Source: Opitutia bacterium (GTDB lineage: Bacteria > Verrucomicrobiota > Verrucomicrobiia > Opitutales > Opitutaceae). Taken from it: DNA of 64,000 nucleotides. The position numbers and the translations under genes are program-made. Of this stretch, positions 22,766 to 24,862 are shown in pieces (within the stretch, counting starts at the first letter, position 1; each line of letters opens with the position of its first letter). Where the stretch lies: NCBI GenBank assembly GCA_016187945.1, contig JACPIT010000004.1:124001-188000 (forward strand). The letters run 5' to 3'. Under the pieces are notes generated by a model that worked only from the letters and a program-made list of their open reading frames with translations, was not told the origin of the DNA and did not search any database.

Positions 22766-24862
22766 ATGTCCTACTGCGCCTCCCGCTTCCACACGATCCG
22801 CCGCCGCACCGTCGAGGTGAAGGCCGGCCCCGTCGGCATCGGCGGCGCAAATCCGATCCGCATCCAGTCGATGACGACAAGCGACACGCAGGACGTCGCG
22901 GCCACGGTGAAGCAATCCGTCGCGCTCGCCGAAGTCGGTTGCGAGATCGTGCGCGTGACGGCGCCGAACGTCCCCGCCGCGAAATGCCTCAAGGACATCC
23001 GCGCCGGCCTGAGCGCCGCGGGCTTCGGTCACATCCCGCTCGTAGCCGACATCCATTTCCTTCCCAGCGCCGCGATGGAAGCCGTCGAGCATGTGGAGAA
23101 AATTCGCGTGAACCCCGGCAACTACGCCGACAAAAAGAAATTCGCGGTCAAGGAATACACCGATGCCGACTACGACGAGGAACTCCAGCGCATCCACGAC
23201 GCCTTCTCGCCGCTCGTGCTCCGCGCCAAGGCCCTCGGTCGCGCCATGCGCATCGGCACGAACCACGGTTCGCTCTCCGACCGCATCATGAACCGCTACG
23301 GCGACTCGCCGCTGGGCATGGTCGAGAGCGCGCTCGAATTCGTCCGCATCTGCGAGTCGCACGGCTTCCACGACATCGTGCTCTCGATGAAAGCGAGCAA
23401 CCCGAAGGTCGTCATCCAAGCCTATCGCCTGCTCGTCGAGAAAATGGATCGCGCGCACCGCGCCTACCCGCTCCACCTCGGCGTGACCGAAGCCGGCGAC
23501 GGCGAAGACGGCCGCATCAAGAGCGCGATCGGCATCGGCAGCCTGCTGCTCGACGGCCTCGGCGACACCATCCGCGTCTCGCTGACCGAAGACTCCGTCT
23601 ACGAAATCCCGGTCGCCCACGCCATCGCCGACAAGGCGATGAGCCTCTGGAGCCAAAACACGACCGCGGCGGGGCGGGCCGCCCCGCCCTACCCCACGCC
23701 ATCAACGCCGGAAGGTAGGGCGGACCGGCCCGGTCCGCCGTCGCACGACGCCGTCGACCCCTTCACCTACGTCCGCTGCGACACCGCGCCGCTCGAACTC
23801 TCGCCCGCGTGCGTCGCCGGCGACGAGCAGCCGCCGCGCGTGATCGTCAGCGCCGGCACCGTCGGTCGCGTCGCCGAAGTCGCCCGCCAGCTCTCCGACC
23901 CGAAACTCAAGGACACGCCCGCCGAAGGCCTGCTCGTCCGCGCCGACACGCCGAGCGATCTCGCGGAACTCGCCGACACGCTCACGCGCACGCCGCTCCC
24001 GGTCCAGTTCCTCGTCGTCGAAGCCGGCCCGCTGCTCGTCGCTGGCGACTTTGCGAACGTCCTCCCTCCCGACGGCGGCCGCGTCGTGATCTGCCGCCGC
24101 TTCGGCGCGAACGAAGCCGCCGAACTCGAGTCCTTCGCCGCGCTGGTGCGCGAGCGCGGCCACTTTCTCGCGATCGACCTCGCCGCCGACGCCGAAACGA
24201 CGCTCCTCGAAACGGTCCGCCGCCTCGGTGACACGCGTCTGCTTTTCACGCGCAGCAGCGTCGGCGCGAACGCCGGTCACCCGACCGGCGCGTATCGCCG
24301 CCTCCGCGAATTTCTGCGCGCCGCCGGCTCGCGCGCGCCGGTGTGGATTCGCAACACGCCCGCGACCGCGGTGCGCGGCGACAACAGTTTCCTTTCCAAA
24401 CTGCTCGAGGCGTCCTTCCTCACCGGCGGATCGCTTGCCGATGGCCTCGGCGATCTCGTGAGCATCGAGACCGAGTCCGACGCCCCGCGCGCCACCAAGC
24501 TCGCCTACAACATCCTGCAAGGCGCCGGCGCGCGCATCTCGAAGACCGAGTTCGTCGCCTGCCCGAGTTGCGGTCGCACGCTCTTCGACTTGCAGACCAC
24601 GACGCAGCGCATCCGCGCGCAAACCGGTCACCTCAAAGGCGTGAAGATCGCGATCATGGGCTGCATCGTGAACGGCCCCGGCGAGATGGCCGACGCGGAT
24701 TTCGGCTACGTCGGCGGCGCGCCGGGAAAGATCAACCTCTACGTCGGCAAGAACTGCGTCCAATACAACATCCCGCAAGCCGACGCCGACGCGCGCCTCA
24801 TCGCCCTCATCCGCGAACACGGCAAGTGGGTCGACCCCGAGCCGCATCAGGTTTCGCGCTAA
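22766..24862 (+). CDS. ispG: 4-hydroxy-3-methylbut-2-enyl diphosphate synthase, long form, with embedded repeat
   Basis: 698 aa, the long three-domain IspG type found in plants, chlamydiae and Bacteroidota (short forms are about 370 aa). The N-terminal TIM barrel contains GGANPIRIQSMTTSDTQDV and IRVNPGNYADKKKF. The C-terminal [4Fe-4S] domain holds CPSCGRTLFDLQ and GCIVNGPGEMADADFGYVGG. Residues about 301-325 are encoded by an inverted pair of REP hairpins, giving the Pro/Gly/Arg-rich stretch AAGRAAPPYPTPSTPEGRAD between the barrel and the extra domain. Frame and both flanking domains are intact, so the enzyme is probably active. The step makes HMBPP in the MEP pathway, matching dxr upstream. 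The stop codon sits in the loop of a perfect hairpin. Confidence 0.95.
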   Translation: MSYCASRFHTIRRRTVEVKAGPVGIGGANPIRIQSMTTSDTQDVAATVKQSVALAEVGCEIVRVTAPNVPAAKCLKDIRAGLSAAGFGHIPLVADIHFLPSAAMEAVEHVEKIRVNPGNYADKKKFAVKEYTDADYDEELQRIHDAFSPLVLRAKALGRAMRIGTNHGSLSDRIMNRYGDSPLGMVESALEFVRICESHGFHDIVLSMKASNPKVVIQAYRLLVEKMDRAHRAYPLHLGVTEAGDGEDGRIKSAIGIGSLLLDGLGDTIRVSLTEDSVYEIPVAHAIADKAMSLWSQNTTAAGRAAPPYPTPSTPEGRADRPGPPSHDAVDPFTYVRCDTAPLELSPACVAGDEQPPRVIVSAGTVGRVAEVARQLSDPKLKDTPAEGLLVRADTPSDLAELADTLTRTPLPVQFLVVEAGPLLVAGDFANVLPPDGGRVVICRRFGANEAAELESFAALVRERGHFLAIDLAADAETTLLETVRRLGDTRLLFTRSSVGANAGHPTGAYRRLREFLRAAGSRAPVWIRNTPATAVRGDNSFLSKLLEASFLTGGSLADGLGDLVSIETESDAPRATKLAYNILQGAGARISKTEFVACPSCGRTLFDLQTTTQRIRAQTGHLKGVKIAIMGCIVNGPGEMADADFGYVGGAPGKINLYVGKNCVQYNIPQADADARLIALIREHGKWVDPEPHQVSR
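23666..23741. repeat. Inverted pair of GTAG-headed REPs (BIME) inside ispG
   Basis: The right element (23715-23739) is GTAG plus a 10-bp stem GGCGGACCGG around one C. It is identical over 25 bases to the two elements bracketing the RAYT gene at 44096-44120 and 44583-44607. The left element (about 23668-23692) is in the opposite orientation with a related stem GGCGGGGCGG, its GTAG reading on the minus strand. The two heads face each other across 22 bp. Confidence 0.9.

Follow-up and report, generated by a model that had tools for sequence, protein, structure and literature searches.

A tail-tail REP dimer lies in frame in the ispG interdomain linker, a place occupied by different multi-copy repeats in related Opitutaceae

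In-frame intragenic REP elements of the GTAG and CGTC types were described in 2013 (PMC3733652). In the accessible part of that report most GTAG cases come from Opitutus terrae, intragenic REPs are often dimers or groups encoding 20-30 amino acids, and flexible linkers or loops are proposed as the reason for their tolerance; recB of two Xanthomonas species is shown with different REPs at about one site. Rickettsia palindromic elements (RPE), according to the available portion of PMC10969869, are mobile elements that lie in frame in metabolic genes and are predicted to be compatible with protein function. For Pseudomonas fluorescens, the part of PMC3116915 available describes REPINs, inverted REP doublets that behave as a unit, and REPs that flank RAYT genes. 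The REPINs are primarily extragenic, with genes overlapped by only 14 of 1,067 occurrences of the commonest 16-mers.

The locus described here lies in a window of 64,000 nucleotides, the whole stretch of DNA analysed, from an Opitutia bacterium of the Opitutaceae. Its ispG gene contains GTAG-tagged palindromes, like the genes in the part of PMC3733652 available, although the name ispG is absent from the main text of that paper, and its accessible part describes no linker that many repeat families have filled, time after time, within one bacterial family. RPE are about 150 bp long with a conserved peptide (PMC10969869, in part), whereas the ispG unit is a short dimer of GTAG REPs from a RAYT-flanking family, and, unlike the RPE of that text, the ispG linker is one site holding different families in different species. 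With the REPINs of PMC3116915, as described in its available part, the ispG dimer shares the inverted doublet and the RAYT link, but it is joined tail to tail, unlike the usual head-head unit of its own genome. Searches of openly accessible texts, supplements excluded, found neither a REP insertion in ispG nor a single linker that several repeat families fill repeatedly in members of one bacterial family; the latter result is no proof of absence. As far as these partly available sources go, what is new is the ispG linker as a recurrent site for different repeat families, while intragenic REPs were known, mostly as separate cases.

The REP dimer in ispG and its family in this genome

The gene and the parts of its insert are as follows.

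22766-24862, + strand: ispG (gcpE), long form, 698 aa, identified by Pfam, NCBIfam and PDB comparison
23667-23693, - strand: left REP, tail inward, with 2 paired differences from the family pattern
23694-23713, no strand: spacer of 20 nt between the inward-facing GTAG tails
23714-23740, + strand: right REP (GGTAGGGCGGACCGGCCCGGTCCGCCG), identical to the RAYT-flanking copies

The ATG at 22766 was chosen as the start, the listed open reading frame being longer and beginning at a TTG at 22691; the listing shows no stop codons within 22766-24862. The product matches Pfam GcpE at 1.9e-120 and scores 452 bits against TIGR00612 (cut-off 280), and comparison with the PDB returned 3noy and 2y0f. It is the single IspG match in its own genome. 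The TIM barrel, the extra domain and the C-terminal Fe-S domain with Cys ligands that define the long form were all found. Residues C599, C602, C633 and E640, which we take to be the ligands, are invariant among 37 sequences. Open reading frames read by eye at 19947-22547, directly 5' of ispG on the same strand, are presumably dxr and rseP.

Other hairpins lie beside the gene. Just 5' of it, at 22563-22648, is an inverted pair of GGTGGGCGCCGCTGTCCC and its complement, a second REPIN-like dimer of another kind. Just 3' of it, at 24950-25026, is an inverted pair of TTGTCGGAGCNGCNTTGCGT, possibly a third repeat family, with a looser match at 63178-63197. ispG is thus flanked on both sides by hairpin pairs, with another inside.

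The internal pair occupies codons 301-325 (23666-23740). Its two inverted 27-nt arms are 85% complementary and stand 20 nt apart, and each forms a perfect 10-bp stem with a 1-nt loop. The predicted fold of 23655-23750 has an energy of -60.8 kcal/mol (z = -4.38), and none of 200 shuffles was equally stable. The right REP is 100% identical to window positions 44094-44123 over 30 bases and to 44582-44608, on the opposite strand, over 27 bases. In the left REP, 2 positions that are fixed in the family pattern are changed, and the two altered bases are paired with one another in the stem. These results bear out the original prediction of a REP pair in frame within an intact ispG, with the left hairpin a diverged inverted copy and the right one identical to RAYT-flanking REPs 20 kb away; the identity extends beyond the 25 bases first claimed. 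Both units end in GGTAGGG, and in each the palindrome carries its terminal GTAG outside the stem, as in the GTAG REP super-family. The GTAG tags face inward, whereas the tags of the two REPs of a REPIN lie outside. In the segment two REPs of a GTAG-type family are joined tail to tail as a dimer, in frame.

The family pattern has 83 matches in the 5.47 Mb genome (42 forward and 41 reverse, double hits on palindromes counted), against 0 for a reversed-pattern control, and these fall into 53 sites by genome coordinate; the family is therefore both high in copy number and interspersed, as is the super-family. A regular expression found 21 head-head dimers, each of 74 nt with a 22-nt gap, and one tail-tail dimer, that in ispG; pairing of pattern matches gave 20 and one, respectively. 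A RAYT gene lies between two copies of the family, the arrangement of RAYT-associated REPs.

44076-44573, - strand: RAYT (REP-associated tyrosine transposase), 165 aa, identified by NF047646 and PDB 4er8
44095-44121, + strand: REP at the 3' end of the RAYT gene, within its reading frame
44582-44608, - strand: REP 5' of the RAYT gene

The RAYT gene scores 82.3 bits against NF047646 (cut-off 80), and its product resembles the TnpA_REP structure PDB 4er8 (E 3.7e-6); Pfam Y1_Tnp falls below its cut-off (E 0.062, 13.9 bits vs 23). From its association with the REPs, this RAYT is likely to be the mobiliser of the family. The REP on its 3' side encodes part of the RAYT C-terminus, GGPGRSALPP. The idea that REP frames are specially open for translation was unsupported: 79 of 126 translation frames of REP dimers were open, compared with 76% in shuffles. 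The 74-nt head-head unit is not divisible by three.

An AlphaFold2 model of IspG built from 37 sequences had a mean pLDDT of 85.5. Residues 301-325 were the sole stretch of at least three residues below a pLDDT of 50, coinciding exactly with the REP-encoded part, and the insert lies between the TIM barrel and the next domain, as had been proposed. Low pLDDT is not by itself proof of disorder, since the alignment is poor there, and it is expected for an insert. On this model, translation of the REP segment would give a disordered linker, about 25 residues long, from the TIM barrel to the next domain of an active enzyme.

Intragenic sites were sought across the genome. At 28 of the 53 REP sites no open reading frame spans the element with 30 codons on each side, and the other 25 are spanned by 33 open reading frames. 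All 33 were scanned with Pfam, ispG as its own open reading frame and three through an overlapping locus; Pfam was used because in this GC-rich genome codon-usage scores were too poor a guide to which frames are coding. Those of L313, L317, L318 and L445 were left uncounted because their best domain matches lie far from the REP. Pfam-supported genes with a REP inside the coding stretch were found at 5 of the 53 sites, a census that misses intragenic REPs in genes without Pfam domains or with fewer than 30 codons on one side, such as the RAYT 3' end. The five are ispG; menD, with the REP between the N-terminal and middle TPP domains; nuoG, where it separates the Fe-S part from the molybdopterin-type part; an FGGY carbohydrate kinase, inside the stretch covered by the C-terminal domain; and an ABC-F ATPase, ahead of the C-terminal domain. 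The remaining 48 sites lie outside Pfam-supported spanning genes (genes without Pfam domains being missed), so that the family is mainly intergenic, again as in the super-family. The original prediction had held REPs to be normally strictly extragenic and ispG to show that they can jump into genes. This part does not stand: ispG is no unique exception, given the four other Pfam-supported genes, and the general claim is not new, since intragenic GTAG REPs already appear in the accessible part of PMC3733652 (2013).

The ispG linker in related genomes

IspG was present in 52 of the 57 relatives and in 241 of the 252 family genomes searched. Linkers, counted from the last barrel helix to the DP motif, were read in 149 of 150 genomes (own genome included; 148 within the family plus G055, from the same order) and at 64 of 80 named loci. 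The linker expression gave nothing at 17 loci (16 of the 80 named loci and L179), and for distant named loci, L143 and L147 among them, the linker may be misplaced. The set leaves aside genomes past the end of the list, matches that were split into pieces or truncated at a contig end, and the five last rows, and the sampling may under-count long inserts. Among 174 distinct sequences the linker had a median length of 27 aa. It reached at least 34 aa in 32 of the 149 genomes (own included). Length variation among 29 aligned IspG sequences, taken in 20-residue blocks, peaked at residues 301-320 (sd 10.1, next highest 3.2). The linkers ranged from 23 to 63 aa and differed in sequence; a single linker of equal length and sequence everywhere, which the original prediction had named as the finding that would refute it, was not seen.

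An inverted repeat was called significant when matched by at most 2 of 200 codon shuffles. Such repeats occurred in 14 of 34 distinct linkers of at least 34 aa, compared with 2 of 140 shorter ones (Fisher p 8e-10). The 20 long linkers without one include those of G028 and G008, although the elements there are multi-copy; either the test lacks power or the linker is also lengthened in other ways. These counts bear on the suggestion that the hairpin itself is selected, through ribosome pausing at the domain boundary or tuning of linker length or mRNA stability. The strong folded structure, and the position of the ispG, ABC-F, menD and nuoG occurrences at or near domain boundaries, fit such a role. 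Linkers shorter than 34 aa, however, are found in 117 of the 149 genomes, and short linkers nearly lack significant inverted repeats; moreover, sister genomes gain, lose and swap the element, where a required hairpin should be conserved. We regard selection for the hairpin as very unlikely. A required mRNA hairpin was rejected as the main reading because it is absent from short linkers.

In close relatives the REP pair is absent from the ispG linker or a different element stands there. The original prediction expected absence with the flanking sequence joined cleanly; the absence was found, but no empty site with a clean junction, because linkers differ too much between close relatives for an alignment at the level of single bases. 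The 5,957,605-bp genome G015, presumably O. terrae PB90-1, has no GTAG REP in its ispG linker. The palindromic elements of the long linkers, told apart by eye, are as follows.

G000 (own genome), G005 and G006: GTAGGGCGGACC and related pairs
G008: a CAGGGCGGCGAGTCC pair
G007: a GTGGGAGCGAGC pair
G154: a GTAGGAGCCTGC pair
G259: a GGGAACGCGGGC pair
G028: CCGGAGACCGG repeats
G034: CAATGACCAATG repeats

The ispG loci L051 and L055 (G173 and G165) carry in the same place a linker palindrome, CCAATGTTCG...CGAACATTGG, which has no REP tags and is another repeat type.

In 8 of 9 relatives tested, the linker element was multi-copy in its own genome. Matches were counted among at most 40 scored candidates in each genome, with both strands of palindromes included, and the figures are not copy numbers: 67 each in G007 and G154, 47 in G259, 71 in G005, 79 in G006, 18 in G028, 30 in G034 and 11 in G008, where 5 besides the element itself were to its own linker. 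The CAACGTTCAAC-type linker repeat of G174 was not multi-copy, with 1 match in its own genome. Among the matches listed, G007, G154, G259, G028 and G034 each match their own part of the joined query, and G005 and G006, whose families are related, match each other's parts. Three short control linkers gave self-matches, plus one marginal match in each of two genomes, which fell on a query part mostly or wholly from another genome's linker. The ispG linker is thus occupied by different multi-copy elements across genera.

An artefact of assembly or annotation is scarcely credible as a source of this pattern. Repeats do often break assemblies, and many of the relatives are fragmented, but the frame of ispG is intact and the gene is present in one copy, and in-frame elements occur in many separately assembled genomes, including G007, which has 7 contigs.

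A tree of 50 IspG sequences from which the linker had been removed calls for at least 16 changes of element class, the classes having been given by eye, and for at least 13 changes of presence or absence; many of its forks are not strongly supported, 18 of the 47 inner branches being starred and 11 open. One supported trio consists of G000, G007 and G001, which carry family A, family B and no palindrome, respectively; G001 has a short tandem repeat. A single ancestral REP array that later diversified in place, or by gene conversion, would call for no repeated insertion. Related GTAG-type arrays in G000, G005 and G006 are in keeping with this, as are the tail-tail junction and similar 20-nt spacer common to G000 and G005. 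The two dimer spacers agree at 12 of 20 positions, a value reached by 59 of 20000 shuffles, and on this sequence comparison the dimers of G000 and G005 may share one ancestral array. The linker of G005 holds a head-head pair followed by one more REP, and the G000 dimer could be the remnant of such an array after partial deletion. The possible shared array, together with the cross-matches between G005 and G006, means that not every occurrence need be a new insertion. As a full account, however, a single array is improbable: the elements of G007, G154, G259, G028 and G034 look, by eye, unlike this GTAG-type family in sequence, and each matches repeats present at high copy in the genome that carries it, the tree requires the presence or absence changes given above, and unrelated genes show the same pattern.

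Recurrence in other genes and its interpretation

For nuoG, 4 of 30 genomes (G000, G005, G017 and G014) share an alignment position at which each has a significant inverted repeat, and these repeats differ in sequence. The same holds for the ABC-F linker in 4 of 28 genomes (G000, G001, G007 and G008). Control stretches elsewhere, covering ABC-F and FGGY among the four genes, gave 3 of 112 and 0 of 92, respectively. The truncated ABC-F sequences L407 and L408 and the FGGY sequences L432-L438, much lower-scoring or partial, were dropped from the comparisons. By eye, single palindromes were seen in nuoG of G036 and G015 and in ABC-F of G032. In menD, 2 of 30 rows were significant (G000 and G002), seemingly with one family, and other palindromes were seen by eye in G001 and G028. 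The FGGY kinase insert was found in G000 alone (1 of 23).

In-frame palindromes of other kinds were also noted in L369 (G028 menD), L332 (G015 nuoG) and L338 (G014 nuoG), and nuoG of G014 has several hairpins in succession.

Repeated insertions at identical alignment positions are what a transposase with a sequence or structure preference for its target would produce, in which case targeting and not tolerance would make linkers recurrent. The same places are used by different families, though, presumably with different transposases, and we give targeting little weight.

The reading we favour, at a probability of roughly 0.78, is that REPs insert widely and that the intragenic copies spared by selection lie mainly in interdomain linkers, which are used again. 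REP elements would insert widely, probably moved by RAYT transposases; intragenic copies would mostly be purged, the survivors lying mainly in interdomain linkers or loops. One linker could then be colonised, lost and recolonised by whichever repeat family is active in each lineage, the same linker being recolonised because few such permissive places exist. The reused places would be ispG, nuoG, an ABC-F gene and possibly menD. Retention of the insert would reflect tolerance rather than benefit.

In one bacterial family, then, differing repeats fill the linker of one MEP-pathway enzyme as well as a single position in nuoG and another in ABC-F. Such recurrent linkers amount to experiments, replicated in nature, on where a protein will take an insertion of 20-40 residues, and they make permissive linkers findable from genome sequence alone. 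They also offer a direct test of whether REP placement is set by targeting or by purifying selection. A bolder proposal, which we consider doubtful, is that in the Opitutaceae a few interdomain linkers of core proteins might be standing landing sites for successive unrelated REP families and hence a continuing source of new linker sequence, in which some hairpins may be co-opted, for example for translation pausing at a domain boundary.
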